From NCBI GenBank assembly GCA_902728285.1, contig CACVBU010000567.1, forward strand, positions 124,001 through 188,000: 64,000 nucleotides of DNA, read 5' to 3'. Under the pieces are notes generated by a model. It was not told the origin of the DNA. It saw nothing but the letters and a program-made list of their open reading frames with translations, and did not search any database. Position numbers and translations under genes: made by a program. Position 1 is the first letter of the stretch, and each line of letters starts with the position of its first letter. The DNA comes from Clytia hemisphaerica (taxonomy: Eukaryota; Cnidaria; Hydrozoa; Leptothecata; Clytiidae). Below, piece by piece: positions 35,952 to 64,000 of this stretch.

Positions 35952-36597
35952 ACTTTGCTGTGTGCTATTGTATGATTAAAGATGTTTACAATAATGCAAT
36001 ATGATCTCTAGACAAGAAAATTAATTTAAAAAAACACAAGGAATTCCTTGGTAGAATTTTTTCTCTACATATACCGTGAGTTGTTGTTGAAGGGTTGATT
36101 AAAAATGAAAGTAGTATTGGAGACATGTAAGTTTTAAACACTGGATTTGATCACTATTTTCAACATTTTGTGTATCAATAAGTGATAGATGACCATTCCA
36201 TCAAAGAGTGCTCGATGATCAGGATCAGATCTTCATACAGTGTACGAGAAGAAAACAAAAGTGACGATTTGATAAAGAAGAAACTTAAAGTACTATCATA
36301 ATTCAACACTTTGTGTAGATAAGATGCATTATAAGGGCAACAATTCTGAAAAAAATAATAAAGATTACTATCAGAAAGTGCGGACATGTGTGGCTATTCC
36401 TTCGACTGGAGGACTAATTTTTACGGCGATACCCCCTACTTGGGTTGGAGAGTGTTCGCTATGTAACTTAGAGAGAATGAAAAAGTGCCCTTTAGAAAAC
36501 CAACTTTATAATTTTTTTCCCAGCACCAAATCGACAATAATGGATCTTCTGTTTTTCACTTTAGTTATAGTGTAAAATAACAACAAACAAAAAAAAA

Positions 36598-39500
36598 ATG
36601 GCAGAATCGTGTAATACATATTGTACTGCGGACGAACGCCCTCCAGTTGAAAAATCTGAAAATGTTTCAGCAATAATTCCTCATCCCCAAGATATTGGTT
36701 ACGATGTTGAATTTGTAGAAGAAAACATCAAATTGGAGGGTATCACGTGTGTCATTTGCTCTTTGGTTATGAGGAGCCCGATTCAAGCACACAAATGTGG
36801 ACACCGCTTTTGTGCAAAATGTATTGAAAAGTACCACGAAACAAGGTATCGCCTTATTAATCGTCACCCTCTTTGTCTCACTAACTCCCCCTCTCTTCTC
36901 TCTCAACCCTTCCATTGTTTCCCTTTCCTCACCTTTACCCTCTCAATCACTACATCCTTCTTCTCCTTCCCCCTCTTCTCCACCTCTCTCTTCTCTCTCT
37001 CCTTCTCCTCCACCTCCCTCTTCTCCAACTCCCTTTTCTCCAACTCCCTCTTCTCCACCTTCCTCTTCTCCACCTCCCTCTTCTCAAACTCCCTCTTCTC
37101 CACCTCCCTCTTCTCCTTCTCCCTCTTCTCCACCTCCCTTTTCTCCACCTCCCTCTTCTCCACCTCCCTCTTCTCAAACTCCCTCTTCTCCACCTCCCTC
37201 TTCTCCACCTCCCTCTTCTCAAACTCCCTCTTCTCCACCTCCCTCTTCTCAAACTCCCTCTTCTCCACCTCCCTCTTCTCCAACTCCCTTTTCTCCAACT
37301 CCCTCTTCTCCACCTTCCTCTTCTCCACCTCCCTCTCTCAAACTCCCTCTCCACTCCCTCTCTTCTCCTCCCCTCTTCTCCACCTCCCTTTTCTCCACCT
37401 CCCTCTTCTCCACCTCCCTCTTCTCAAACTCCCTCTTCTCCACCTCCCTCTTCTCCACCTCCCTCTTCTCAAACTCCCTCTTCTCCACCTCCCTCTTCTC
37501 CACCTCTCTCTTCTCAAACTGCCTTTTCTCTACCTCCCTCTTAACTCCACCTCCCTCTTCTCCACCTCCCTCTTCTCAAACTGCCTTTTCTCTACCTCCC
37601 TCGTCTCCACCTCCCTCTTCTCAAACTCCCTCTTCTCAAACTCCCTTTTCTCCACCTCTCTCTTCTCCTTCTCCCTCTTCTCCACCTCCCTCTTCTCCAC
37701 CTCCCTCTTCTCCACCTCCCTCTTCTCCACCTCTCTCTTCTCCACCTCTCTCTTCTCCACCTCCCTCTTCTTCACCTCCCTCTTCTCCAACTCCCTCTTA
37801 TCCACCTCCCTCTTCTCCTTCTCCCTCTCCTCAAACTCCTCCATCTCTCTCTTCTCCACCTCCCTCTTCTCAAACTCCCTCTTCTCCACCTTCCTCTTCT
37901 CAAACTCCCTCTTCTCCACCTCCCTCTTTTCCACCTCCCTCTTTTCCACCTCCCTCTTTTCAAACTCCCTCTTCTCCACCTCCCTCTTCTCCTTCTCCCT
38001 CTTCTCCACCTCCCTCTTCTCCACCTCCCTCTTCTCCACCTCTCTCTTCTCCACCTCTCTCTTCTTCACCTCCCTCTTCTTCACCTCCCTCTTCTCCACC
38101 TCCCTCTTTTCCACCTCCCTCTTTTCAAACTCCCTCTTCTCCACCTCCCTCTTCTCCTTCTCCCTCTTCTCCACCTCCCTCTTCTCCACCTCTCTCTTCT
38201 CCACCTCTCTCTTCTCCACCTCCCTCTTCTCCACCTCCCTCTTCTCCACCTCCCTCTTTTCCACCTCCCTCTTTTCAAACTCCCTCTTCTCCACCTCCCT
38301 CTTCTCCTTCTCCCTCTTCTCCTTCCCCTCTTCTCCACCTCCCTCTTCTCCACCTCCCTCTTCTCCACCTCTCTCTTCTCCACCGCTCTCTTCTCTTCTT
38401 CACCTCCTCTTCTCACCTCCCCTCTTCTCCACCTCCCTCTTTTCCACCTCCCTCTTTTCCACCCCCTTTTCCACCTCCCTCTTTTCAAACTCCCTCTTCT
38501 CCTTCTCCCTCTTCTCCTTCTCCCTCTTCTCCACTTCCCTCTTCTCCACCACCCTCTTCTCCAACTCTCTCTTCTCCACCTCCCTCTTCTCCACCACCCT
38601 CTTCTCCAACTCTCTCTTCTCCACCTCCCTCTTCTCCGCCACCCTCTTCTCCTTCTCCCTCTTTTCAAACTCCCTCTTCTCCTTTTCTCTCTTCTCCACC
38701 TCCCTCTTCTCCACCTCTCTCTTCTCAAACTCTCTCTTCTCCACCTCTCCTTTCTCCACAGCCTTCTTCTCCACAGCCTTTTTCTCCACCTCCCTCTTCT
38801 CGAACTTCCTCTTCTCCTTCTCCCTCTTCTCCTTCTCCCTCTTCTCCAATTCCATCTTCTTAAACTTCCTCATCTCCACCACCCTTTTCTCCTTCTCCCT
38901 CTTCTCCACATCCCTCTTCTTCACCTCTCTCTTCTCTACCTCCCTCTTCTCCACTTTCGCTCTTCCCCAATTCCTTCTTCTCCACCTCCCTCTTCCTTGC
39001 TCACCTTTCTATATCTATAACCACTTGCAAACAAATTTTCATCCCTTTCTATAATGGTGCTGTAGGTGTGATGCCTTCTAAAATTTTAGAATGTTGATAG
39101 CTCTGACAGTCACTTTTTTTCTTCTCATTTCAGTGATGGTATTGTCTGTCCCTTCGACCGTCAACCGATTGAGGTAAAGATTCTATATTTTGTTTGTTTT
39201 TGAATTAAAAAACGGATCAATTGACCTTCTTTACTTAAAATCCAATAAATTTCCTTCGCTCCGGACTTAATTTAATAACAAAATATTTCTAGATTTTCAA
39301 AGATATCGGAAGGGAACGTGAAATTCTTGAAATGAAGGTCTACTGTAAAAATCGTCCACAATGCAGTTGGCAATCAGAACTCCGATATTTCGAGGTACCA
39401 CTATCATTTGTAACTTTTTTCTTCTGATTGATGGTAAATTTCACAGAAGTCACCAGTAGCCTTCTAAGGATATTGTAGAAGGAATTAAAACCTCCTTAGG

Positions 39501-41712
39501 GGGTTCAGAATTTGTTGTTTTTAGTGGTTCTTTGATGATTTTGAAGGGGTATTTATTAGTACGTCGCTCACAATTTCTTACAGGATCATATGAAGGAGTG
39601 TCTGTTCGAAACGATCGATTGTGATATGAATTGTGGTATCAAAGTTCTACGGTCAGATGTAAGGTTTTATTGTATTGATCCTGAAATCATGTACGTGTTC
39701 TGTCTTTGGTATAGGTTTGTAGATTTCAGAGAATCATTGACCATTCCCATAGTTCGGACCCCCCCCCCTTCCCTAAGGGGGGGATGACACCTTCCAAAAA
39801 AAGTGAAGAAAGGGGGGGTCAGAGATTTTCACTAAAAAGGGGGGGGGGGGTAGCAAGGAGGGGGGTCGTTAAAGAAGGGGGGCTTACATATATTGTAGAT
39901 TATTTTCCAGCACTGTTATGAAATTTGGTCTACATGAAAGGAAGTTCTTTATTTTCTCTAAAATTTGGTATTATATTTGCCAGACTTAATTTTTCTTTAC
40001 TGTTTCCCTTCCCTTTTTACCATAAAAAATTTAGCCCGAAACCCTTGGGGGATAGGCATTTTTAAAGGTTGAGGGGGATGCCAAGAAGGGGGGATCATTT
40101 AAGAAGGGGGGGGATAAATTTTGTTTTGATAGAAAAAGGGAGGTACAATTTTGGGTTATTGTATGGATTTCCTCAAGACAATAAAGCGTGGCTTTGATCT
40201 TTTAGTTTAGGATCATTTCCTTTTTAGATGAGAAATCATTTGGAAAATGATTGCCTGGTGGAATTTCCTTGTCAATATCAATCGATCGGATGTCTATTCA
40301 CTGTAAGTTTTCTCTAGGTTTAGAGGTCTAATTCGAGACGAAAATGGTTCCCAAACACTATTGTGTGGACACCAATAATTTGAAACGTCACCAAGCAAGA
40401 AGTTACAAATCAAAGCAGATCAAAACCGTTTTTATACACCCCTGTCGCACAGCCCCGGTGGAACTTTTTTCCTCAGTGAGGATAAAAATTCTTATCAAAA
40501 TCATAAATGGGGATGGAAATTCTATTGTTCCAAGGTTAAAAAACCCAATGGGGATGTTTTTGGAGTGCAATTTTTAAACATGGAATTTCGAGTTGGGATG
40601 AAATCAAGGTCGATTTCCCAGTGGGGCTGAAATTCAAGGGTATTTTCCAACCGGGGAGGAAATTTTGCTTAATTTTCCGGTGGGGCTGGTGTTCCAGCGG
40701 GTCTGTGCGACACAGGGGTGTTTTTATTGGAATGGAATTGCTGCGTTCTATTGATCCGAAACGTTTAAAAAACCAGTATGAACACTTTCTATCCGTAACA
40801 AAAACCATACCGAAGCTATGCTAACCGTAACGTCTGAACATGTTCTTAAATTGTGTGGAAAGATATTCACATCATGTTTATTTTTTTCAGGGCTCAAAAA
40901 GATCTTTAACGGAGCACATGGTCCTATCAACCAATCAACATCTCTTGTTCCAAATGCAGCATGAAGTGAGAAAGGTCAAGCAAGATTTCGATGAAAAATT
41001 GAAGGCTAAAGATTTGCAATTAAGGATTCTTGGTGAACGCTTGAAGACAGTTGAAGGTGAAATTGTCGTATTGAGAAATGAAAAGAAGAAGATGTCAGCT
41101 GAAATCAAAACCAAAAACGACAAGATGAATCAATTGGACGCAAAGTTAATAGAATTGGAGGATCTGGTTGAGGATAACCAACTCAAAAATTATAACAAAC
41201 TTGGGGATATGGCGAAAGCAATAGACGGTTTGAAAGTTGAAAATCAAAAAGCTGTAGCGAAAATAGATACCTTTTCACATCCATTCATTTTGAAAATTGA
41301 TAATTTTGACGAACAATTTAAACAAGCGAAAACCCAAAATAATATAATCAGATCACGACCATTCCTTTGTTTGGGCCAATACAAGGGGCAATTGAAGCTA
41401 TATTTAAATGGCAATAGTAATGGGATAGGCACTCATATATCAATATTTTTTTGTCTTATTGAAGGGCCTCTTGATGACATGATTGAATGGCCAATGAAAT
41501 GGAAGAAATGCACAATTGAACTGATCATAAATGACACAGTCATAGGGTCACATATATTGAGGGGCGTAAACGAGAATTTCAAGAACTTTAAACGTCCGAC
41601 TTTTGCTGAAAATGAAACCGGAAAACGAGGACCATCGAAATTTGTTGACCATAAAGATATACCCCATATCATTCGAGATGATATAGTAACGATCAAATTT
41701 GAAATTCATTAG
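36598..41712 (+). CDS. TRAF-family RING/MATH protein
   Basis: TNF-receptor-associated-factor type adaptor and probable E3 ligase, acting in the cytoplasm at receptor tails. Exons: 36598-36845, 39134-39173, 39293-39394, 39584-39658, 40228-40302 and 40891-41712. All phases match; 453 residues, a usual TRAF length. Seen: a RING with C51-x2-C54, C67-x-H69-x2-C72-x2-C75 and CPFD at 88-91, split by intron 1; TRAF-type zinc fingers over about 100-190 (YCKN..QCSW, CDMNCG, CQYQSIGC); a charged heptad-rich coiled coil at about 200-300; a C-terminal MATH domain from about 315 (HPFILKIDNF ... FVDHKDI ... DDIVTIKFEI). The start ATG is preceded by an A-rich leader. AATAAA lies at 41884. Which vertebrate TRAF it matches best is not decidable by eye, so no symbol is given. 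Intron 1 is a large minisatellite. Confidence 0.93.
36885..39000 (+). repeat. 2.1-kb polypyrimidine 15-bp minisatellite
   Basis: More than 100 copies of a 15-bp unit, consensus TTCTCCACCTCCCTC, with recurrent variants (caac, tcaaac, ttct substitutions). It fills most of TRAF intron 1. The plus strand is almost purely C/T. The unit length is a multiple of three, so long frames are open on both strands; these are artefacts of the repeat, not genes. Confidence 0.95.
40330..40853. mobile_element. Outer MITE interrupted by a nested element
   Basis: The flanks (40330-40436 and 40721-40853) together resemble the palindromic element at 59798-60025: shared 'actattgtg', 'gaaacgtcac', 'agttacaaatcaaagcagat' on the left and 'aaccgtaacgtctgaacatg' on the right. 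The outer left terminus is degraded. Located in TRAF intron 5. Confidence 0.55.
40437..40720. mobile_element. hAT-like MITE nested in another MITE
   Basis: 284 bp with ends CACCCCTGTCGCACAG and the mirrored CTGTGCGACACAGGGGTG, flanked by TTTTTATA and TTTTTATT, a near-perfect 8-bp target duplication as expected for hAT elements. The interior has several 'ggtggggctgg' and 'ttttccagtgggg'-like units. Confidence 0.7.
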
Positions 41713-43349: not shown

Positions 43350-43565
43350 TCGATCAATGTCAATTGAAGAAATACATGGTCAGGAAATCGGGTTTGCGCG
43401 AGGCCCGAGGTCGAGATTTTTTTGGTCACGTGATCGAAACGCATGGGTAGAAGTCGGCGGAGAAGGAGGAGGAAATTTGAACACTATAGTATAACATCAT
43501 GTAACTAACAAGAACAAATCTAACCCATAATCATAGAAAAAAAAAGAACATTAACAAAAATATCT

Positions 43566-44778
43566 TTAACAAGCCAATACATTTTCAACAGCTTTTTTAT
43601 CGCTATTTTTCTTTAAGTTGTTTCGTAGACTCCCCTTTGATTTTTTGGCTTTCTCTTTTATTTTGTACTTTTGAATGATATCTTTAGCAAATGAAAATGA
43701 GCGCACTCTAACATACAACTCTATCAAACATTTGAGTAATTCTATCAAAATCTCTTCAGGGACATTGTCAAAACTTATGATATTCTGATAATGGCCAACA
43801 ACAGTATCATTTTTAGACAGAACACTTACAATGAAGGGTATATCGATCAATCTTATATTAGCCTTAGAGGTCTCTTTTCTGAATATTTTTTCTGTTTCAA
43901 TGAAAATGGCTTGAAAATCTTCATTTACACAACATAAACCACCCCTGTTTTGAGCTTCAATCAATGTCTGTCCTTCATCGCTAACGATACCATTTTCTAA
44001 TATACTTATAATGGCCTGGTTACGTCTTTTTGTTTCTCGCCTTTTTTACTAATTTACGCACAACATATCCTGACAAGTATTGCAGGGCATCTCTCTCAGT
44101 CTTAGAAATGGGCTTGACTTGGTTTTTTTCTTCATCAGGCTCAGCTTGAGGTGATTTATAAAAATGAACAATCTTCTCACCTAACCTTGTTATCAAAAGA
44201 GTAGCAGCAGGAAATGATAAGGACGGAAAGTAACTGCAAGAATCAAGGGCAAACGCATCAAAAAAGTTGTCGAGAAATTTACCAACATTTCCAGATTTTT
44301 CAAGGATTTTGAAAATTTCTTTGGCTTCTTTAATGAGCGTTTCACAGACTTGGTTGTTATAGCACTTGAAATTATCTCGAACTTCTTTTGGATAGCAGAG
44401 GTCTTTTTCAAGCTCTGCTATGGCTTTCTTGATCAAGTCATGCAACGAGCCACCATCTAACTTAGATTGATAGTAATTTACATAGTTGTACTCTACATGC
44501 ATGCAAGACATGTGCCTCGTTAACCCCCCTTTTGATTTTGTTATTTTACTACAATATTTACAAACAAACTGAGGTTTTGATGATTCCCCCTTCTCTTCTG
44601 AAGAAGCTTCACTAGTGGAGACTTCTTCGACCATGCCCACAACAACCTCACCCAATTCGAGATCCTCATCTAAAACCTCAAAGAATGCAGAAATATCCTC
44701 ATTGGGGTCCAGTAAGTCAAATTCTGTATCAGATTCAACCATTTCTTCAAAGATTTCAGTTTCAAGGTGCTCAGCCAT
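43566..44778 (-). pseudogene. Transposon-encoded C2H2 zinc-finger protein, frameshifted
   Basis: Frame starts at ATG 44778 (MAEHLETEIF...), is acidic for about 70 residues, then has a C2H2 finger (FVCKYCSK...TRHMSCMH). A helical middle region and the motif ALQYLSGYVVRKL follow. The frame is lost at a short A run near 44030; the +1 frame continues through GIVSDEG and NRGGLCC to a stop at 43566. A single extra A explains the break, so it is either a genuine mutation or a homopolymer error. The 'GYVVRKL' and 'NRGGL' motifs resemble the C-terminal part of P-element/THAP9-like transposases; this is a weak, by-eye resemblance. No complete catalytic domain was recognised. Confidence 0.6.
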
Positions 44779-44780
44779 CT

Positions 44781-45219
44781 CAGTTCGGCAAATTGCACAG
44801 ATCCGCAACGCTGCGAAATTCTGCATTTTTAGCGTTGTGATATTCCGCAACATAATTTCGCAGCTCTGGCCTTTGGACCAAAATCGGCATTGCAGGGCCT
44901 GGACCAGGGTCCCAAAATAATGTGCATTTTGAAGAACAACCTAAAAGGAAACTTTTCACCCTAGCATTTTAATTTCCTACCTAGCGATTATTCACAATCA
45001 TTCTTGGAAGAAATGCTACTTCGTTCAAAAAAGCGCTACTTTGTTCAAGACAGCAAGTTTTTGCCTGATTTTGCATGTGTTTAGAAGAAAATTGGTAGGC
45101 GCTCATAATTTTTAAAATCACAAGCTTCAATTGGAAGCGTTACGTAAAATAGCAGCCCAACCCTGGGGAAACGCTGCGAAAAACCGCAACGTTGCGGATC
45201 TATGCAATTTGCCGAACTG
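44781..45219. mobile_element. 439-bp MITE inserted at the transposon start codon
   Basis: Ends CAGTTCGGCAAATTGCACAG and the mirrored 'tatgcaatttgccgaactg', then 'atccgcaacg' mirrored by 'cgttgcggat'. Flanked by ATCT at 44777-44780 and 45220-45223, a 4-bp target duplication. Non-coding. Confidence 0.75.
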
Positions 45220-45490
45220 ATCTTGTTTCCATGAAAAACAAAAGGTAATGTTTACTTTTTTGTACAGTCCTAAGGTAGCAGACTCGCCTCCGCCGAAAAT
45301 CTACCCATGCGTTTCGATCACGTGACCAAAACAAAATGAACTTCAACCTTTTAGCCGGGACTTCCTGACCAGGTAGAGAATTCAATTGACATTGGTTCGA
45401 TTTACGCTCCTGTATATAGTACGTCATTACGTCATTTAATCCCTGGTGAAAAAAAAAACTCGGAGTCAATTTTTACCTACTTTTAATTTT

Positions 45491-48080: not shown

Positions 48081-48149
48081 ATATTTTCAAGTTAAATCAC
48101 GCAAACGAGAGTGTCGAAGTGTATGAAATTAGATACCTTACAAAATTCG

Positions 48150-48760
48150 ACCTTTCAATTAGATGGTTCAATTTGACAAATCGACCCTTCAATTTGTCAA
48201 ATCGAACCTTCAATTTGTCAATTCGACCCTTCAATTTGACAAATCCAACATTCAATTTGTCAATTCGACCCTTCAATTTGACAAATCGACCCTTCAATTT
48301 GACAAATCGACCCTTCAATTTGACAAATCGACCCTTCAATTTGACAAATCGACCCTTCAATTTGTCAATTCGACCCTTCAATTTGACAAATCGACCCTAT
48401 TTGACAAATTGATCCTTTAATTTGATGGTCGGCTTGTCAATTTGACAAATCGACCCTATTTGACAAATTGATCCTTTAATTTGATGGTCGGCTTGTCAAT
48501 TTGACAAATCGACCCTTCAATTTGTCAATTTGACCCTTCAATTTGACAGTTGGCTTGTCAATTTGACAAATCGACCCTTCAATTTGATGGTCGGCTTGTC
48601 AATTTGACAAATCGACCCTTCAATTTGTCAATTTGACCCTTCAATTTGACAGTTGGCTTGTCAATTTGACAAATCGACCCTTCAATTTGATGGTCGGCTT
48701 GTCAATTTGACAAATCGACCCTTCAATTTGACAAATCGACTCTTCAATTTGACGCTAGTC
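48150..48760 (+). repeat. 21-bp satellite, left arm
   Basis: Tandem units of about 21 bp, consensus TTTGACAAATCGACCCTTCAA, with variants containing 'gatggtcggcttgtc' that form a longer higher-order unit near 48420-48720. The same satellite occurs inverted at 54608-54970. Confidence 0.9.
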
Positions 48761-48879
48761 CCAGTCCCTCTTTCAAAGAGATTTAGTCTGTAAAATGGGC
48801 TAGTTCTCCATGTATCTTGCCTATTAGATTAAGGAGATAATGCTTTTTATGTATTTTTCTTATTCCCCATAGTCCCTCT

Positions 48880-50300
48880 TTCCCCATATTCCCTCTCTCC
48901 CCATATTCCCTCTTTCCCCATGTTCCCTCTCTCCCCATATTCCCTTTCTCCCCATATTCCCGTATTCCCATATTCCCTTTCTCCCCATATTCCCATATTC
49001 CCGTATTCCCTTTCTTCCCATATTCCCTCTCTTCCCATATTCCCTTTCTCCCCATATTCCCTCTTTCCCCATGTTCCCTCTCTCCTCATATTCCTGTATT
49101 CCCATATTCCCTTTCTCCCCATATTCCCTCTCTTCCCATATTCCCTCTATCCCCATATTCCCTTTATTCCCATATTCCCTCTCTCCTCATGTTCCCGTAT
49201 TCCCATATTCCCTCTCACCCCATATTCCCTTTCTTCCCATGTTCCTTCTCTCCACATATTCCTGTATTCCCTTTCTACCCATATTCCCATATTCCCATAT
49301 TCCCGTATTCCCTTTCTCCCGATATTCCTTCTCTTCCCATATTCCCTCTATCCCCATACTCCCTTTATTCCCATATTCCCTCTCTGCCCATATTCCAATA
49401 CTCCCATATTCCCCATATTCCCATACTCCCATATTCCGAATATTCCCTCTCTCCCCATATTCCCATATTTCTTTTCTCCCCATATTCCCATATTCCCGTA
49501 TTCCCTGTTTCCCCATATTCCCTGTCTCCCCATATTCCCATATTCCCTGTTTCCCCATATTCCCGTATTCCCGTATTCCCTTTCTCTCCATATTCCCATA
49601 TTCCCTGTCTCCCCATATTCCCGTATTCCCATATTCCCATATTCCCTCCTTTCCCCATATTCCCTTTCTCCTTATATTCCCATATTCCCGTATTCCCTTT
49701 CTCCCCATATTCCCATATTCCCTTTCTCCCCATATTCCCATATTCCCGTATTCCTTTTCTCCTAATATTCCCTTTCTCCCTATATTCCCATATTCCCGTA
49801 TTCCCTTTCTCCTCATATTCCCATATTCACTTTCTTCCCATATTCCTTCTCTCCCAATATTCCCATATTCCCATATTCCCTCTCTCCCAATATTCTCGTA
49901 TTCCCATATTCCCTGTCTCCCCATATCCCCATATTCCCATATTCCCTTTCTCCCGATATTCCCATATTCCCGTATTCCCTTTCTCCCCATATTCCCATAT
50001 TCCCTTTCTCCCCATATTCCCATATTCCCGTATTCCTTTTCTCCTAATATTCCCTTTCTCCCTATATTCCCATATTCCCGTATTCCCTTTCTCCTCATAT
50101 TCCCATATTCACTTTCTTCCCATATTCCTTCTCTCCCAATATTCCCATATTCCCATATTCCCTCTCTCCCAATATTCTCGTATTCCCATATTCCCTGTCT
50201 CCCCATATCCCCATATTCCCATATTCCCTTTCTCCCGATATTCCCATATTCCCGTATTCCCTTTCTCCCCATATTCTCCTCATATTCCCATTTTCCCTTT
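48880..50300 (+). repeat. ATTCCC minisatellite, left arm
   Basis: 1.4 kb of short units such as CCCATATTCCC, CCCGTATTCCC and TTTCTCCCCATATTCCC. A higher-order duplication is visible: about 49741-50022 is repeated nearly identically from 50023 (offset about 282 bp). It produces long repetitive open frames on both strands that are not genes. Confidence 0.9.
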
Positions 50301-53300
50301 AATCCCTTATTAAGGGATTCTATCTCTTTGGGGAATAGACAATATTACCAGCTGATATTACTTGTGTTATGCATAAGTGTTAAAATTGCTTTCAAAAAAT
50401 ACAGTCTAACACCCCATCTCCCTCGAATCAGAGCTCAAATCAGCCTTGTTTCGAATAAACGCCCCCTTCGATGGGGCATTTATTGAATTTTTTTTTCAAA
50501 AAGGGGCGCGTTTATTCGAGGGGGCGTTTAACAGAAGGGGCGAAGACAGTAGATTCTCCATAACTCGAACACCCAATCCAAGAGGAATCGAAAATCGTTA
50601 TATAGTTATGGAGAGTTCGAGTTTGGTAGAGGATTTTGAAATTTTCGCAATTTTTTTTTCTCTAATTCATGGAATGAGTTGATGGAAATGAAATATTTGA
50701 TAAAATATCTACTTTTTGTACGATAAGAAGAAGGTCAAAAACATATATTTTATCATCAACAATTTATTAACTGAGGAAAAAATCATCAATTACTGTTTGT
50801 TCACTATTAATATCAATTTTTTGTTTAATGTTATTATTTAATTCCTTCAAGGAACCAGCATTGCTTCCCCGAATCGGGAGAATAGGATTAAAATTTTAAT
50901 CACAATATCAGAAAAATCGAGTTCTAGAGGAAATACTCCAAGAAGGGACCAAGAAAATCATTCGAGTTACGGAAGTTCGAGTACGAGTAAGCAAGCCTTA
51001 ACGTACAAGATGAAAAACTACAACTAAAGATCGCGATAGGAAAAATCAAATAATTTCGCGAGATAAACTTTCGCGAAACAATGATTTTAGATTTTTCGCG
51101 AGACAAACTTTTCCGAAAGGGTAAAATTCGCGAAATTCGCAAAGGTTTATCTTGCGAAAGTTAACCCGAATAAAGTACTCTTAAAATCAGAAAGACATTT
51201 GCAAACCTTTAATTTTTTTTTTTTTTACAAAAAATTCAAAATAAGCCTTGAAAATTACTTAACCCAAGCCTTAAAAAGTACAATATGTAGAGCGAGTTGT
51301 ACTTTTGTAGACAAAAGAGTTCATAATTTCAACTTAGGTTTTCAGTTATTTGGTATTTAATTGTTACATTGAAACAAAAATATTATTAAAATTACTTTTT
51401 CAAAGTAGTTTTATGCTCATTTTATTTCTAACGAAAATGGAACCTTTTATCGATTTTTAAGCACTGTCGTGACATTGTTCGTAAGAAAAACCATCTTGGA
51501 AAATGCTCGCAGTATCACTTTTTAATGGATTCAACTTACTTCGAAGATAGTTGTTTCATTGAAAGCCTAAAATGAGCCATAATATGTTTTTGTTACCAGG
51601 CTTTATCAAGCATTAAAAATTACAATGCAATCGTGTCAAGATAAGGCTAAATACAAAAGCTAGAAAAGACTCCATGGTAAAAATAACTACATTGTAGCCA
51701 AAACACAAGGTCTAATCTCTATCAAAATGCATCGATTGAGAATTTAATTTCAGATTTAGGGGGTTCTAATATGGAAAAAATATTCAATTTTGACTGCATT
51801 TAAGTGTCATCATTTATGACATAGTTGTCAATAATGGCATAGATANNNNNNNNNNNNNNNNNNNNNNNNNNNNNNNNNNNNNNNNNNNNNNNNNNNNNNN
51901 NNNNNNNNNNNNNNNNNNNNNNNNNNNNNNNNNNNNNNNNNNNNNNNNNNNNNNNNNNNNNNNNNNNNNNNNNNNNNNNNNNNNNNNNNNNNNNNNNNNN
52001 NNNNNNNNNNNNNNNNNNNNNNNNNNNNNNNNNNNNNNNNNNNNNNNNNNNNNNNNNNNNNNNNNNNNNNNNNNNNNNNNNNNNNNNNNNNNNNNNNNNN
52101 NNNNNNNNNNNNNNNNNNNNNNNNNNNNNNNNNNNNNNNNNNNNNNNNNNNNNNNNNNNNNNNNNNNNNNNNNNNNNNNNNNNNNNNNNNNNNNNNNNNN
52201 NNNNNNNNNNNNNNNNNNNNNNNNNNNNNNNNNNNNNNNNNNNNNNNNNNNNNNNNNNNNNNNNNNNNNNNNNNNNNNNNNNNNNNNNNNNNNNNNNNAA
52301 AACTACAACTAAGATCGCGAAAAAAGTCCCAATTTTACTGGATAAACTTTCGTGAATAGGAAAAATCAAATAATTTCGCGAGATAAACTTTCGCGAATGA
52401 ATGATTTTAGATTTTTCGCGAGACAAACTTTCCCGAAAGGGTAAAATTCGCGAAATTCGCAAAGGTTTATCTTGCGAAAGTTAACCCGAATAAAGTACTC
52501 TTAAAATCAGAAAGACATTTGCAAACCTTTAATTTTTTTTTTTTTTACAAAAAATTCAAAATAAGCCTTAAAAATTACTTAACCCAAGCCTTAAAAAGTA
52601 CAATATGTAGAGCGAGTTGTACTTTTGTAGACAAAAGAGTTCATAATTTCAACTTTGGTTTTCAGTTATTTGGTATTTAATTGTTACATTGAAACAAAAA
52701 TATTATTAAAATTACTTTTTCAAAGTAGTTTTATGCTCATTTTATTTCTAACTTGCAAAAATGGATGAAAAATTGAACGAAAATGGAACCTTTTATCGAT
52801 TTTTAAGCACTGTCGTGACATTGTTCGTAAGAAAAACCATCTTGGAAAATGCTCGCAGTATCACTTTTTAATGGATTCAACTTACTTCGAAGATAGTTGT
52901 TTCATTGAAAGCCTAAAATGAGCCATAATATGATTTTGTTAGCAGGCTTTATCAAGCATTAAAAATTACAATGCAATCGTGTCAAGATAAGGCTAAATAC
53001 AAAAGCTAGAAAAGACTCCATGGTAAAATAACTAGGTCTAATCTCTATTAAAATGTATCGATTGAGAATTTAATTTCAGATTTAGGGGGTTCTAATATGG
53101 AAAAAATATTCAATTTTGACTGCATTTAAGTGTCATCATTTATGACATAATTGTCAATAATGGCATAGATATGAAAAAAAGTTGGAATATTTTAACTTTA
53201 TTCTGGTCGACAATCTCTTAGCTCTGTATTAAAATCATTTTTCGGCACTTAAGAAACTTTTTGTGACCACAGAAAAGGCATTAATGCGTACAATGGTACT

Positions 53301-53890
53301 TTTTAAGGCTTGTTTTGATATACCTTATTGGTACTATTTTGCGCGTACTAATTTTGCGCAGAGGCCAAAAATGCGCGAAATTTAATACCGAAATTATGCA
53401 CAGTCAGGAAGTGCGAGAAAATTAATACCACATTTTAAAAGAAAGTGGCATTTATCTTTAAAAAGTTCTTTATTTTTGTTTATATGCATAGAAAAGAGAG
53501 GCCTTTGTGCGCGAAAATTAATACCAATAATCTGAAGACAATTAGACTAGTAACTAGCCGTTGTATTTCACTGCAGTCCCGCTTGCAACACGCACACTAC
53601 GTTCGCTGAATACAGAAACCTCTCATTCCCGTGGCGTTTTTCTTTAAAGCGCGCGCATCACTTTATAAGCACATTTCCGCGTTTTGTGTCTCAGGAAAAA
53701 CCAGACGCTTGCTAGTCTATAAGACAATTGGCTGCTGCACGAAAATCTTTTTAGTCTATTAAGGTAGAGTTATTTAGGAAATTTTCACCAAGCCAACACA
53801 TTTGCTCGTATTAAGGAGAGGTTTGAGTAAAGTTTTCATTCACGAGCGGAAAAATTCTAAAAATAGAATCTCTCGGGACACTGTTTGATC
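50301..53890. other. Core of the fold-back element, no gene seen
   Basis: Contains an inverted 'aacgcccccttcgatggggc' type hairpin at about 50458-50530, a pogo-like remnant at 50550-50630, and a direct duplication of about 0.85 kb (about 51010-51845 and 52300-53170) flanking a run of N. It also has TTCGCGA-rich stretches. No coding exon recognised. Confidence 0.5.
51846..52298. other. Assembly gap (453 N)
   Basis: Unresolved bases. Both gap edges lie in copies of the same ~0.85-kb sequence: the left edge follows 'ataatggcatagata', which recurs at about 53170, and the right edge begins within 'actacaactaagatcgcga', also present near 51020. Confidence 0.99.
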
Positions 53891-53894
53891 ATAT

Positions 53895-54500
53895 ATGGGG
53901 AATCGGGAATCTGGACAGGGAGGGAATAGGGACAGGGGAATATGGAATATGGGATGGGGAGAAAGGGAATACAGGGAATACTGGGAATATGGGAGAAAGG
54001 GAAAATGGGATATGGAGGGGGCCTGGAAGGGAATATGGGATATGGAATATGGGAATATGGGGAAATATATGGAATAGAATAGGGAATAGGGAATAGGGGA
54101 AAGGGAATTGGGAATGGGACTGGGGGAGAAGGGCCTATGGGAATACGGGAATGGGATAGCGGGAATATGGGAAATATAGGAATGGGAAAGAGGGCGGGGA
54201 AAGGGAAAGGGAATGGGAATAGGAATATGGGAAAGGAGAGAAGGGAATATGGGACGGGATTTAGGAATATGGGGAAAGGGACTGGGGAAGGGACTATGGG
54301 AAGATGGGAATATGGGGAGAAAAGGGCATATGGGTTAGAGAGGGATAGGGAATAAAGGGAATGGGATAGAATATGGGGAGAAAGGGAATATGGGAATACG
54401 GGAATATGGGGAGAGAGGGAATATGGGGAGAAAGGGAATATGGGGAGAGAGGGAACATGGGGAAAGAGGGATTATTGGGAGAGAGGGAATATGGGGAATA
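53895..54500 (-). repeat. GGGAAT minisatellite, right arm
   Basis: Inverted counterpart of 48880-50300, shorter (about 0.6 kb) and more diverged at its inner end. Units such as GGGAATATGGGGAGAAAGGG become regular from 54390. Confidence 0.85.
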
Positions 54501-54607
54501 AGAAAAACACATAAAAAGCATTATCTCCTTAATCTAAATGGCAAGATACATGGAGAACTAGCCCATTTTACAGACTAAATCTCTTTGAAAGAGGGACTGG
54601 GACTAGC

Positions 54608-54970
54608 GTCAAATTGAAGAGTCGATTTGTCAAATTGAAGGGTCGATTTGTCAAATTGACAAGCCGACCATCAAATTGAAGGGTCGATTTGTCAAATTGA
54701 CAAGCCGACTGTCAAATTGAAGGGTCAAATTGACAAATTGAAGGGTCGATTTGTCAAATTGACAAGCCGACCATCAAATCGAAGGATCAATTTGTCAAAT
54801 AAGGTTCGATTTGTCAAATTGAAGGGTCGAATTGACAAATTGAAGGGTCGAATTGACAAATTGAAGGTTCGATTTGACAAATTGAAGGGTCGATTTGTCA
54901 AATTGAAAGGTCGATTTATCAAATTGAAGGGTCGATTTGTCAAATTGAAGGGTCGATTTGTCAAATTGAA
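54608..54970 (-). repeat. 21-bp satellite, right arm
   Basis: Inverted counterpart of 48150-48760: units of GGTCGATTTGTCAAATTGAA, with the same 'gacaagccgaccatcaaatt' higher-order variants. Confidence 0.9.
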
Positions 54971-55078
54971 CCATCCAATTGAAAGGTCGAATTTTGTAAG
55001 GTATCTAACTTCATAGGTTCTGATGTCAGACCACGCGTTACTTAAATACAATATTTCGAGGATTTTTCTTCTTTATCA

Positions 55079-55223
55079 AATTCATGCTATTCTACGGAAA
55101 GATCCTGGTTTTTGCCAGTAGTGGCAAATTTTATACAACTTTTGTCTAGTTTAAATTTGCGCCACTACTGGCTAAAACCGGGGTATTTCCGTAGAAAACA
55201 TTACGTCATGAATAGCATGAATT
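55079..55223. mobile_element. Palindromic MITE
   Basis: 'aattcatgctattc' is mirrored by 'gaatagcatgaatt', with inner 'tacggaaagatcctggtttt' and 'gccagtagtggc' mirrored by 'gccactactggc' and 'ccggggtatttccgta'. About 145 bp, directly beyond the fold-back element. Confidence 0.6.
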
Positions 55224-55402
55224 CCATTTCCTTTTTTCATTGACAGACACCATATGTAAGTAACTAAAAAGCTATTTAGGATAATTTTGGTACATTATTA
55301 TATTAAGATCATACAGAGATGATATTTTTCCAAAATTAGGAAAATCAGTTCTTCTAGTTATGCTTTCGCTTGGTTCATCCATATAAAAAAGTCTATAGAT
55401 TA

Positions 55403-58400
55403 TTAGCTTCCAGGCTTCCAAGAATCTGGTTCGTACTTAGTCTCTTCAGTTTGGGCGGCACTTCCACCGCCCGGTGACCATGAATCAGGTTGATAGTTCG
55501 AATCTGTCCCTGGGGGCGGTGACGATGATTTCGAGGCTATTGTAAAAGAAAAATCATGATCATAAAAAAGAGATTGGGTTAGCCTATGCTATAATCTAAG
55601 ACGAATTCGAATACAAAATAATAACCTCAAACACGCAAATTAGCAGTCGGGCGGAAATTTTGTACACACAGGTGAAAAATAGTCGGAGGGGTTCAATGTC
55701 TTAAACTATATCAGCTCGGTAAACACAGACTCTATTTTCCGGCGCGCAATATATTACGTTTTATAATATACAACTATGATATATCATAATATCATAATAA
55801 TATATTACACGAACGATAGCATCGTCTACAATCCGTGCCATAACATATTGGCAATTTTGGCGATTTTACCATTTTTTCGAAAATTGAAGTTCGATCGAGA
55901 ATGTCAATTTCGGGCCTTTAACTTGATTTCGATATGGGAGGGATTTACTGGCTTCTAGGCTATATTTCAAGCCCTACCGGACCATTTTTGAACTTTTGGA
56001 TCCTCAAATCCTAAGGTCCTAAGTCTAGCGTTAAAACTCAGAGTTAAAACTCTACTTTTCCAACTTATTTGGAGCACTTCAAAATTGTTTGTGGTTATAA
56101 AATTTAGTAGGAAATTTCCCTTTTGTGCCAAGTATTTTGGAACTGATTGTAGCATTGGGTATGAACCTGATTAAAAGCCTATTTAACCTTGACTGAGTAT
56201 CGAGCTCGCAACTCTTCTTAAAAGGCAACTGACTTTGTCTTACCCCATGGGCCCATCCAATATTTTTTTGAAAATATTTTTAGTCGTGAAAGGATGAGTT
56301 CCTTTTTCTCTAAAAAAACTCTTCATCTTAATTTTGCTTTATCTTATATTATTAGCGGTCTCGCTAGTTCGATCGTGGAATAAAAAGAATTATTTCATGA
56401 CATGTAAAATATCTGCAATCTGATTGGTTACATTACAGTGCATAAACGTCATATTAAGCAGTTATTGGACAAAGTCGAATCCAATATGCAAAAATATTGG
56501 GCGTGCGAGAAAAGATATTGGACGAGGCTTCGCCGAGTCCAATATCTTTTCTCGTAGCCCAATATTTTTCATATTGGATGAGACTGCGTCCAAATAAATG
56601 GTTTATTATCCGTTCATCGCTAAAATATTTCTCGTTTTCAAACATAATTCCAATTTATATGCTCGTAAATCTGGTTTCTTGGTAGTTTTTTATTCAAAAG
56701 TCTTATTTTTAATTTGTGACGTAACGTCAAAAAGAAGATACTCAATTGTCATTGAACTCGTTGTGTGACGTCAATTTTTGAAATATGTAGCCTCCGTGGA
56801 AGCTATATATTCGAAAATATTGGACAGCAAAGAAGCCAATCAAATGTCGCTATTTACGCGCGTCGGATAATAATTTCATTTATTGCACTGTTCGTTTTAT
56901 TTGCCTTATCGAATCAACTACAATAGTTTTTTTTCACACTTCTCACAATCTTGTTTCTATGCCTAGTCCTCAGCCTATATAACATTATAATATATTAACG
57001 AGATATTTATTATTTATCTAAGAATAGTTTATTTATTTCTTACTGTCTGCCATAATTTATCTAGGACGACTATCTTGCGAACAAGCCGTTATCCAGTCTA
57101 ATTATTACTAATCGAACAAACTTCCAAACGTCATATCTCAGTATTCTGATTCCGAGCATTACTTAGTTTTCCTTATTCCTTTCAATGAGCCCTTCTTCCC
57201 GTATCTGTTCGAGTTGTTAGTTATTTATCTATTTTATACACATAGCATATACATTATATAACACTTTTCTTGTAAGAAAAACCAATATTTTTGGAGATCA
57301 AGGAAATAATAATGTTAAAAAAAAAAAATTTGCACTGTTGCGCTTCATTTATTGCACTGATCAATGCAACAGCTTCATTTTTTTGACGTCAATTTCTTTG
57401 AGAAATAAAAAAAGAAAGTAGATTTTTCAAGTCTTTCGATAAACCAATTATAACATAATACCTCGTGCAATAGGGGTTTATTTTTCTCGTTCTTTTATTT
57501 TTGCTGTTATTATCACTCGTGTAAAAATAAAAGAACTCGAAAAATAAATCCCATATTGCACTCTGCACTATGCGATAACTAATACTTACAAAGTGCTTAA
57601 GAAAATTCGGAAAATTCGATAGCGAAATATCTACAAATAAAGAATCAACTTCTACTTCATACAAGGTGTTTCAAGCTGGCGCAATCGCAAAGACCTGAAG
57701 ATTGCTGATTTCGCCAGCATGAAAACACCGTGTACAATTGCAAGCTAGTTCTTTATCTCTCGATATAATTCAATCATATTTTTAGTTTCCGACAAGGGAG
57801 AACCATGGTAAAATAATTAAACTATAATTCGAATCTCTTTGTAATTAGGACAAATTTGACTCCCCTTTCGTGTTCAAATAGACTAATAATTTAAAATTCC
57901 AGGTCAATAATCAGCTTCACCTAATTATCAAACACTAAAAGGTGAACGGTACTGCAAAAGAGAAGTGCGCTCGTCAAAAAAGGGAAAATTTATTCAAAAC
58001 ACTCTCTCACGCGACTTTTTTATGGCAGACATACTCCTATTTTTTACTTTGTGGGAGAATTGCCTCTATTTTGCGTCATAAGAATAACGGTCTGGGAATC
58101 GAGGCTAAGTTCAAATTAGCGAGAGTTCACTGCAGTCCCAGCTGGCACACAACGTTGTTTCAACGTTCATCTAACGTTATATGGACGTTGGGAACATTAG
58201 ATAAACGGTGCAACAACGTTGTGCCAGTTGGGGTGCTTAGAATATAGCAAATTTGGATCGATCATCAATCAGAACCAATCACATTGAAGTACAGTTATCT
58301 CTCTTTAATTCGATATATTCGATTTATAGAGATTGACTAGGCATTATTGACTGAATTAACAAAGTCACACCCTTCTCACAAACCCACCAGAATTGACCAA

Positions 58401-59728
58401 AATATTTTCCCCAGGAAACTTAAACTTAACTGAGCGTCGAGCTCGCAACTCTTCTTAAATGGTAACTGACTTTGTCTTACTCCATGGGCCCATCCAATGT
58501 TTTTTTGAAAATATTTTTAGTCGTGAAAGGATGAGTCCCTTTTTTCTCTAAAAAACTCTTCATCTTAATTTTGCTTTATCTTATATTATTAGCCGTCTCG
58601 CTAGTTCGATCGTGAAATAAATAGAATCACAAAGTGCTTAAGAAAATCAACAAAATTTGAGCGAAATATCTACAAATAAAGAATCAACTTCTACTTCCAA
58701 CAAGGTGTTTCAAGCTAGCGCAATCGCAAAGACCTGAAGATTGCTGATTTCGCCAGCATGAAAACACCGTGTACAATTGCAAGCTAGTTCTTTATCTCTC
58801 GATATAATTCAATCATATTTTTAGTTTCCGACAAGGGAGAACCATGGTAAAATAATTTCTATAATTCGAATCTCTTTGTAATAAGGACAAATTTGACTCT
58901 TTCGTGTTCAACTAGACTAATAATTTAAAATTCCAGGTCAATAATCAGCTTCACCTAATTATCAAACACTAAAAGGTGAATAGTACTGCAAAAGAGAAGT
59001 GCGCTCGTCAAAAACAGGGAAAATTTATTCAAAACGCTATCTCGCGCGGTTTTTTTATGGCAGACATACTCTAATTGCCCCTATTTTGTGTAATAAGAAT
59101 AATGGTCTGGGAATCGAGACTAAGTTCAAATTAGCGAGAGTTCACTGCAGTCGCAGCTGGCACACAACGTTGTTTCAACGTTCATCTAACGTTATATGGA
59201 CGTTGGGAACATTAGATAAACGTTGAAACAACGTTGTGCCAGTTGGGGTGCTTAGAATATAGCAAATTTGGATCGATCATCAATCAGAGCCAATCACATT
59301 GAAGTACAGTTGTCTCTCTTTAATTCGATATATTCGATTTATAGAGATTGACTAGGCATTATTGACTGTATTAACAAAGTCACACCCTTCTCACAAACCC
59401 ACCAGAATTGACCAAAATATCGTCCCCAGGAAAATTATCCTCCAATTTTTGTCCCGGCAGAAAATAACCAAATAAACAAATCTTCACTGCAAAATATTGT
59501 GCTATTTTTTTCCATCCTCGCTGAGTTTTCTGACTTCAAGACAAAAGAATTCAAAGCCAGCCATAAAAAAATATGAGGATATCAACCCGCCCATCGAGTT
59601 TTGGTCCGTTATTTTTACCCCCATTGGCTAACAAATTCCAAACAGGCCTATGAGAAGGAGTTGTAACAATACTGACGACATACCTGTGCTTTTACCGGTA
59701 GATGGTGGTTCTCGTTGAATCAAACCCT
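55403..59728 (-). CDS. Unrecognised Pro/Ser-rich protein, last two exons
   Basis: Two minus-strand exons too short to appear as long open frames. The upstream exon, 59684-59728, follows 'ctttttttcag' and ends at a gtatgt donor; it encodes GLIQREPPSTGKST. The terminal exon, 55403-55536, follows 'ttcttttacaatag' and ends in TAA. The junction phase matches (one base plus two). The terminal 43 residues contain SKSSSPPPG and an imperfect repeat, YQPDSWSPG then YEPDSWKPG. This is a low-complexity, probably disordered C-terminus; no family recognised. The alternative AG two bases later would make the upstream exon start at 59726. Further 5' exons were not found; they may lie between 59.7 and 61.4 kb or upstream of the DUF389 gene. 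A link to that gene's transcript cannot be excluded. The connecting intron carries the tandem duplication at 56182-59431. Confidence 0.6.
58138..58233. mobile_element. AACGTTG palindromic MITE, copy in unit 1
   Basis: 'cagctggcacacaacgttgt' then 'ttcaacgttcatctaac' is mirrored by 'ttagataaacggtgcaacaa' then 'cgttgtgccagttg'. About 96 bp hairpin. The partner copy at 59154-59248 was duplicated together with its surroundings. Confidence 0.65.
59154..59248. mobile_element. AACGTTG palindromic MITE, copy in unit 2
   Basis: Same hairpin as 58138-58233. Here the right arm reads 'aaacgttgaaacaacgttgt', pairing better with the left arm than in unit 1. Confidence 0.65.
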
Positions 59729-63168: not shown

Positions 63169-63364
63169 AGTTCCTTGGTCATTGTTTTCTGTCCAATCTT
63201 GAAACTAAAGCTTAACAATAGTGACCGTTCCCTCTTTTTCGACTTGTTGGTTGATGAAATTCTGGTAAATAAGGTGTACATGCAATACCTTGAGGATTCG
63301 AATCCAGCGAGGATAACATTGATAGTTGAGGTTCGAAAGTTCACGATATCAATTGCAAGCCTCA

Positions 63365-63825
63365 CTTTAAATCTCTGTTGTCCTCAATTTAGAATGAGCT
63401 TCGATTGCCAGAGAAGACTAGCACTGCTTGGAGAAATTCTTGATTTGTCAAGTGAACTTTAAATCTCTGTTGTCCTCAATTTAGAATGAGCTTCGATTGC
63501 CAGAGAAGACTAGCACTGCTTGGAGAAATTCTTGATTTGTCAAGTGAACTTTAAATCTCTGTTGTCCTCAATTTAGAATGAGCTTCGATTGCCAGAGAAG
63601 ACTAGCACTGCTTGGAGAAATTCTTGAGTTTGTCAAGTGAACTTTAAATCTCTGTTGTCCTCAATTTAGAATGAGCTTCGATTGCCAGAGAAGACTAGCA
63701 CTGCTTGGAGAAATTCTTGAGTTGTCAAGTGAACTTTAAATCTCTGTTGTCCTCAATTTAGAATGAGCTTCGATTGCCAGAGAAGACTAGCACTGCTTGG
63801 AGAAATTCTTGAGTTGTCAAGTGAA
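63365..63825 (-). repeat. 92-bp tandem repeat, five copies
   Basis: A 92-bp unit beginning 'ctttaaatctctgttgtcct' repeats five times (starts 63365, 63457, 63549, 63642, 63734) with almost no divergence; one copy is 93 bp. It lies about 200 bp upstream of the DUF389 start on the coding strand, in the likely promoter or first intron. The last ~170 bases of the window show nothing further. Confidence 0.9.
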
Positions 63826-64000
63826 CTTGTTCTCTATAAATACTCAGTCTTGGCAATCGAAAACAGTTTTCCATTTATTCCATTACTTTTTATTCCCTTT
63901 CTCCAGTCAAGCAATAGAAAGAGAGCTGACTGGCCATTTATTGAAAATACCCCCTGACTGTGTTTTGAGACTTTTTATTTAACAAAAGGAACAAAGAAAA

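Follow-up and report, generated by a model that had tools for sequence, protein, structure and literature searches.

Foldback elements with two-satellite arms and IS3EU-type ends in the genome of the hydrozoan Clytia hemisphaerica

Introduction

Foldback-type arms have been described in DNA transposons of the Mutator type, as in Tetris (PMC4079207) and Tm1 (PMC3169594), and of the P type, as in Galileo (PMC3573991, PMC3688188). Complete families of the IS3EU superfamily are reported always to have TA..TA ends and usually to be flanked by 6-bp target site duplications (TSDs), and 6 bp is also the TSD length given for Polintons (PMC10045372). For a set of fungal IS3EU families, 6-bp TSDs, terminal inverted repeats (TIRs) longer than 30 bp and ends of the form TAYGG..CCRTA are described (PMC12730594). 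Here and below, the cited reports are drawn on in part, and what is said of each applies to the parts used. This study concerns a fold-back element in a 64,000-nucleotide stretch of the Clytia hemisphaerica genome, referred to throughout as the window (contig CACVBU010000567.1, here C394; C394:124001-188000). Each of its arms carries two satellites, one with a 21-bp unit (satellite 1) and one of the ATTCCC type (satellite 2). Short copies of the same design, together with a relative of about 21 kb that encodes a transposase, were found at other loci. The short copies are very likely low-copy, non-autonomous foldback DNA transposons of the IS3EU/GingerRoot type that would be mobilized in trans by a transposase like that of the large relative. 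The foldback form itself is known; what is new is its occurrence, with two-satellite arms, on IS3EU-type elements. No description of a foldback IS3EU element was found among the titles and abstract openings listed in literature searches, which covered papers under open licences.

Results

Architecture of the element

The homology between the two arms stops abruptly at TATGAA on both sides, at positions 48122 and 55015 of the window. The bounds given in an initial annotation made from the sequence alone (48121..55012) were near these positions and are corrected here. The same annotation described two mirrored arms with a common order of parts, and TRF (Tandem Repeats Finder) and alignment identified both as stated, each comprising a 45-bp tip, a 21-bp array, a spacer of ∼107 to 110 bp and an ATTCCC array. 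On the plus strand, the left arm begins with the tip (TATGAAATTAGATACCTTACAAAATTCGACC..., 48122..48166), with TA at its extreme end. The tip is followed by satellite 1 (unit TTCAATTTGACAAATCGACCC, with 20-bp variants inward; 48167..48753), by a spacer of ∼107 bp (48754..48860), and by satellite 2, of the ATTCCC type with spacing of 8, 17, 25 or 33 bp (48861..50300). The right arm lies on the minus strand and reads from its tip (54971..55015) through satellite 1 (54608..54970) and the spacer (54498..54607) to satellite 2 (∼53891..54497). Between the arms, an assembly gap of 453 N (51846..52298) divides the core into a left part (50301..51845) and a right part (52299..53890), both given on the plus strand; the left part matches the cores of copies on contigs C250, C508 and C722. 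The two arms agree in their tip stretches at 64 positions out of 66 and in their spacer regions at 136 out of 139 (97.8%), and the longest ungapped inverted block, 432 nt at 96% identity, is beyond chance. By eye, a small palindromic element (GCCAGTAGTGGC ... GCCACTACTGGC; 55085-55225) was noted immediately beyond the right tip.

The satellite 1 array measured 587 bp in the left arm versus 363 bp in the right, and the order of unit types is colinear between the arms despite the unequal copy number. Plain 21-bp units lie outside, 20-bp variants (GATGGTCGGCTT and GACAGTYGGCTT) lie inside, and the two closing units are identical. A diverged 21-bp unit is also present inside the tip; none of 1,000 control 45-mers taken from the window matched the unit equally well. 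Satellite 2 holds 42 of the window's 43 G-quadruplex (G4)-type motifs, 29 in the left array on the minus strand and 13 in the right array on the plus strand, and letter shuffles of these arrays yielded at most 6 (left) and 3 (right). The G-rich strand of satellite 2 points 5′ to 3′ toward the element end in both arms. Sequence comparison detected no relation between satellites 1 and 2, and no Rfam matches at the gathering score were obtained across the window. The idea that satellite 2 derives from the spacer was rejected, with a match of only 12 bp that was reached by 21 of 500 shuffles.

Copies elsewhere in the genome and their insertion signature

Genome searches covered an assembly of 417 Mb in 951 contigs. 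An initial search with the arms placed relatives on at least six other contigs (at least 24 matches and at least 12 first-look candidates). Using a 31-bp tip and allowing up to 3 mismatches, a genome-wide search returned 11 sites, all of them exact and including both tips in the window, and none in the control; more diverged or lost tips, such as that of the C635 locus described below, are uncounted in this number. The 11 tips comprise inverted pairs on C250, C394 (the window), C508, C617 and C722 and a single tip on C443. The copies on C250, C508 and C722, with lengths between tips of 5,453, 4,413 and 5,152 bp, respectively, show the full arm architecture at either end, and their cores are homologous, that of C722 being inverted relative to the cores of C250, C508 and the window. 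C443 carries a single arm with the beginning of the core, and a second tip was not found within positions 171100-200800 of the contig. This copy (L011:4316-4930) stops within the core and gives way to a 23-bp satellite (TCACTTAAGCGACACCTACTAGT).

With the window included, nine arms at five loci carry the tip, the 21-bp satellite, the spacer and the ATTCCC satellite, in that order. The initial annotation had proposed a search for the spacer joined to both satellites at other loci, and this junction was recovered in seven arms at four of them, with 89 to 100% identity. Satellite 1 ends 145 to 629 bp from the tip across all nine foldback arms, and satellite 2 is ∼570 to 1,480 bp long in eight of them, the window right arm being unmeasured owing to one substitution. 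The arms of the short copies are ∼0.9 to 2.2 kb long. Long inverted arms of this kind, consisting mostly of tandem repeats in variable number, conform to the foldback structural type. No copies were identified with exact patterns in viral or prokaryotic contig collections. A translated search with the tip and the 21-bp array gave 1,184 word-sharing candidates, none with an E value of ≤0.1.

Perfect 6-bp TSDs flank three of the five two-ended copies, namely AGTATG (C722), CGGCTG (C250) and AATATT (C617); these are the 21-kb copy and two of the four short copies that have both ends. Two random positions in the window carry exactly the same 6-mer with a probability of 0.00055, which gives ∼1.7e−9 for three or more matching pairs out of five; AATATT counts least of the three because it is AT-rich. 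All 11 tips begin with TATGAA; the TA belongs to the element, with the 6-bp TSDs beyond it. Dispersed copies with TSDs identify this as a mobile family.

A large transposase-bearing relative

The tips on C617 enclose 20,968 bp (C617:145049-166016). The two tips show no difference over 66 bp and carry states (GTCAAATCGATCC) that are absent at that place from the other nine tips. An uninterrupted frame of 388 codons from stop to stop, with its first Met at codon 39, lies ∼1.5 kb inside the right tip. It matches the Pfam integrase core family rva_4 (PF24764; E value, 5.5e−79), with a further match to rve (4.6e−6) that is below the rve cut-off, and carries acidic residues in the integrase pattern (D155, D212 and E249). 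Comparison with solved structures gave weak matches only, all to integrase chains of human T-lymphotropic virus 2 (HTLV-2; E values, 0.63 and 0.66). Each end of the C617 element carries the 21-bp array. A second transposase, 97% identical to that of C617, was found beside a 21-bp array on C635, in a stretch that is collinear with C617 from satellite 1 inward (97.7 to 99.5% in the main blocks) and from which the tip is missing. Transposase and array are thus linked at C617 and C635, since both loci carry both. Fragments resembling a HECT ubiquitin ligase were also seen in the C617 element (L013:5092-8229; Pfam, 0.043, below the cut-off; E6AP HECT by phmmer, 0.002) and could represent a possible passenger gene; part of this stretch has a second, collinear copy on C635.

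The initial annotation found no transposase in the core of the window copy, and Pfam gave the same answer, with no match in 10 of the longer core open reading frames (ORFs), which were picked from 41 listed, several of those being satellite or N. For the mobilization in trans that it suggested, the C617-type transposase is now a specific candidate. The features of IS3EU elements that could be identified are the TA..TA ends, the 6-bp TSDs and an integrase-like DDE transposase, the last in C617 (none was seen in the window copy).

A related family was inspected at two loci, on C281 and C652 (L046:618-1130 and L047:610-1120). It begins with TATGGAACGCC (TATGG), and by eye a tandem array (GCTCTTTTCATTCGCTCATTC...) follows directly. 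Its transposase is 42% identical to the C617 type. Neither a right end nor a TSD was found for this family, the homology of the two loci stopping at a place that is not end-like. As judged by eye, it offers a second end-adjacent array in the IS3EU-like class.

Alternative classifications

The least probable of the other readings is a foldback element of the Tc1/mariner type with TA duplications. The arm homology does end in TA on both sides, and two palindromes in the window (10211-10377 and 12600-13026) likewise begin with TA. However, TA belongs to the element at all 11 tips, with 6-bp TSDs beyond it in three copies, and it starts none of the seven other short inverted pairs listed, the listing having missed the two palindromes just named. 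A non-mobile palindrome, which the initial annotation held out as an alternative, would consist of a composite satellite locus segmentally duplicated in inverted orientation, with an unrelated core between the two copies. This would suit a window copy that itself has no TSD and in which no transposase gene was recognized, but five inverted pairs at different loci have the same ends and three of them have 6-bp TSDs. For the family, this alternative is rejected as highly improbable. About equally improbable is a Foldback/Phantom/Mutator-type or TU-type element. Here, the likeness to Foldback/TU elements seen in the initial annotation holds for the foldback structure, and the modular repetitive arms do recall those of Tm1 and Tetris (PMC3169594, PMC4079207). 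Kinship is not supported, as TSDs of 8 to 11 bp are reported for elements of the Foldback/Phantom/Mutator type against 6 bp here, and the transposase encoded between these tips on C617 is of the integrase type rather than a MULE enzyme, with no MULE match among 18 ORFs scanned.

That the large relative is a Polinton/Maverick, with the short copies as its derivatives, is very improbable, if less so than the preceding readings. The 6-bp TSDs, the length of ∼21 kb and the integrase-type enzyme would all fit. Against it, the tips start with TA, and TA..TA ends fit IS3EU; Polintons usually start with AG. Pfam identified only the integrase among the eight C617 ORFs scanned, all from the middle and right parts of the element. 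DNA polymerase B, ATPase and capsid were not among these eight, a result to be read with the 1,053 N of the stretch, the exon fragments and the position of the left piece outside the scan; the left part yields no N-free ORF of 110 amino acids.

Several points weigh against the classification of the short copies as IS3EU-type elements mobilized in trans. Two-ended copies total only five, and given this number, the activity of the family may be past. The TSDs were read from occupied sites alone, and two copies have flanks that do not match: the window copy, with GAAGTG on the left (48116..48121) and GGTTCT on the right (55016..55021) at the expected TSD positions on the plus strand, and C508 (CACAAC versus GATCAG). 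No adjacent duplication of 7 to 10 bp was found at the window copy either. The IS3EU assignment is based on the TA..TA ends, the 6-bp TSDs and the integrase-like DDE transposase, and the tips read TATGA, the fifth base being unlike that of TAYGG, a motif reported for a set of fungal families rather than for the superfamily. This transposase class is common in the genome (106 scored of 2,096 candidate places), so another source of transposase could act. Finally, the C617 arms lack satellite 2 along with the greater part of the spacer, and the core of the short copies matched the fetched pieces of the 21-kb element over at most 26 bp. Given the missing arm parts and the near-absence of shared core sequence, simple internal deletion of C617 does not account for the short copies.

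The window copy as a probable chimera

The 453-N gap in the window copy is flanked by an 836-bp near-repeat (51036-51845 and 52356-53171), and the gap-side segments of the core are 98.8% identical apart from indels. Each of the other three full short copies contains the 836-bp segment a single time, so with the gap and this duplication, the 6.9-kb size of the window copy is unreliable. The gap-side segments, W1 (51014-51845) and W2 (52299-53171), have different affinities. W1 and C250 alone share a deletion of ∼36 bp, a deletion of 26 bp and five single-base states, and differ by nine substitutions and two indel events; W1 and C508 differ by nine substitutions and four indel events, and C508 has neither deletion. 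For W2, the fewest substitutions were to C508 (four, with six indel events), compared with 13 to C250 and 19 to C722. The different affinities of the two core halves, together with the mismatched flanking hexamers, point to a junction of two half-elements at the gap. The window copy is probably chimeric, with halves from two copies brought together either by a scaffolding mis-join or by real ectopic recombination. The initial annotation had warned that one arm could be an assembly artefact; both arms exist, and what survives of the warning is that the halves probably come from two copies. Allelic overlap at the gap was considered and is disfavored, as the gap-side segments share states with different loci.

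A single genuine insertion, with the TSD lost by mutation or flank deletion and the repeat at the gap arising as a tandem duplication or an uncollapsed allele, is unlikely. The near-identity of the gap-side segments would suit it, and C508, which contains no N and likewise has no matching TSD, indicates that such losses occur. In addition, partner halves flanked by GGTTCT or GAAGTG are absent among the 11 tips of the assembly, W2 and C508 are separated by six indel events, and W1 is equally distant in substitutions from C508 and C250. The deletions and base states common to W1 and C250 alone, the proximity of W2 to C508 by substitutions, and the single occurrence of the segment in all three other full short copies favor a chimera instead.

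Proposed origin and mobilization

The ∼21-kb relative would provide, in trans, a DDE integrase-like transposase that cuts at the terminal TA of the tips, and insertion would proceed via a 6-bp staggered cut. The 21-bp array would most likely act as a row of extra transposase-binding sites. This role is predicted because the unit is related to the tip and the array is present at both C617 ends, and the transposase sites within the arm repeats of Galileo provide a precedent (PMC3688188). The ATTCCC array and the core, seen only in the short copies among the loci compared, would be passengers.

The left-end signature GACGCTAGT was identified in all nine foldback arms and in the left arm of C617 and is absent from the C617 right arm. 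The 21-bp array of the C617 left arm also closes with the units found in the foldback arms, and the first 53 bp of their spacer follow (98%); beyond this point, the C617 arm diverges. Because both arms of the short copies bear the left-end signature, two inverted left-end copies are the simplest reading. The foldback arms could thus have arisen by inverted copying of a C617-type left end, consisting of the tip, the 21-bp array and the first 53 bp of the spacer. The ATTCCC array and the core would have been gained in the short lineage, and both arrays would then have varied freely in length. A bolder version of these events is doubtful: that an IS3EU lineage independently evolved foldback arms by inverted end-copying, that the 21-bp array is a selected landing strip for the transposase, and that the window copy is a real recombinant marking a chromosomal rearrangement in Clytia.

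Other features of the window

A 2-kb array at 36955-38995, in which TRF counted 137 copies of a pyrimidine-rich 15-bp unit (TCCCTCTTCTCCACC), lies between a RING-like stretch recognized by eye (∼36571-36850) and a MATH-domain exon (40831-41712); perhaps all three belong to one TRAF-like gene. At 43417-45335, inverted repeats of 46 to 47 bp (TTTTGGTCACGTGATCGAAACGCATGGGTAGA...) stand 1.9 kb apart around ORFs with a weak C2H2/BED-like finger (44020-44940), making this region a candidate DNA transposon. Copies of a ∼1-kb tandem duplication at 57588-59437 are 95.6% identical apart from indels, and the sequence between them (58420-58627) recurs at 56183-56390. A 92-bp unit present in five copies of 99% similarity (63364-63828) adjoins a DUF389 ORF. 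The best hit of the DUF389 protein in Clytia is only a 43% match, probably to a paralogue, whereas a zinc-finger protein encoded in the window matches a C. hemisphaerica protein at 100% identity across 98% of the query. A dispersed repeat with internal tandem periods of 152 and 475 bp flanks an NRDE-2-like exon (21569-22569 and 32189-33573).

Discussion

The presence of foldback arms on IS3EU-type ends supports the view that repetitive arms have a convergent origin and serve transposition. The tip and one satellite are common to the large and the short copies, while only the latter were seen to carry the second satellite; this makes the family a system for testing which repeat the transposase needs. 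These elements also carry satellite arrays around the jellyfish genome, and foldback copies of this kind can cause chimeric scaffolds in draft assemblies.

Among foldback elements, Tetris of Drosophila virilis is built in a similar way from outer, tandem-repeat and inner domains, with repeats that share sequence with the outer domain; it likewise has no coding capacity and is proposed to be mobilized by another element. It differs in its TSDs of 8 to 10 bp, its single repeat type of ∼220 bp and its proposed membership of the Mutator superfamily (PMC4079207). Tm1 of root-knot nematodes also combines an end motif, variable short tandem repeats and a purine-rich block, but it has 9-bp TSDs, a Phantom/MULE transposase, 14-bp repeats and a 12-bp purine block (PMC3169594). 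Galileo of Drosophila shares the long repetitive arms and has transposase-binding sites within the repeats (PMC3688188), and its chimeric copies, in which the arms are of two kinds and the TSDs do not match, resemble the copy in the window (PMC3573991). Unlike the Clytia family, it belongs to the P-element superfamily and has 7-bp TSDs (PMC3573991, PMC3688188).

On the side of the transposase, Styx of Zymoseptoria shares coding sequence with IS3EU and, like the family described here, has 6-bp TSDs and partnerless single TIRs; it is fungal, with a 36-bp TIR, and the parts of its description used here mention no satellite arms (PMC10853768). Further counterparts are the IS3EU/GingerRoot elements, which have the same TA..TA ends, 6-bp TSDs and integrase-like DDE transposase and include fungal members with passenger genes (PMC10045372, PMC12730594). 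Fungal members are described as ending in TAYGG, with TIRs of more than 30 bp (PMC12730594), whereas the short copies of Clytia have arms of ∼0.9 to 2.2 kb that carry two satellites.

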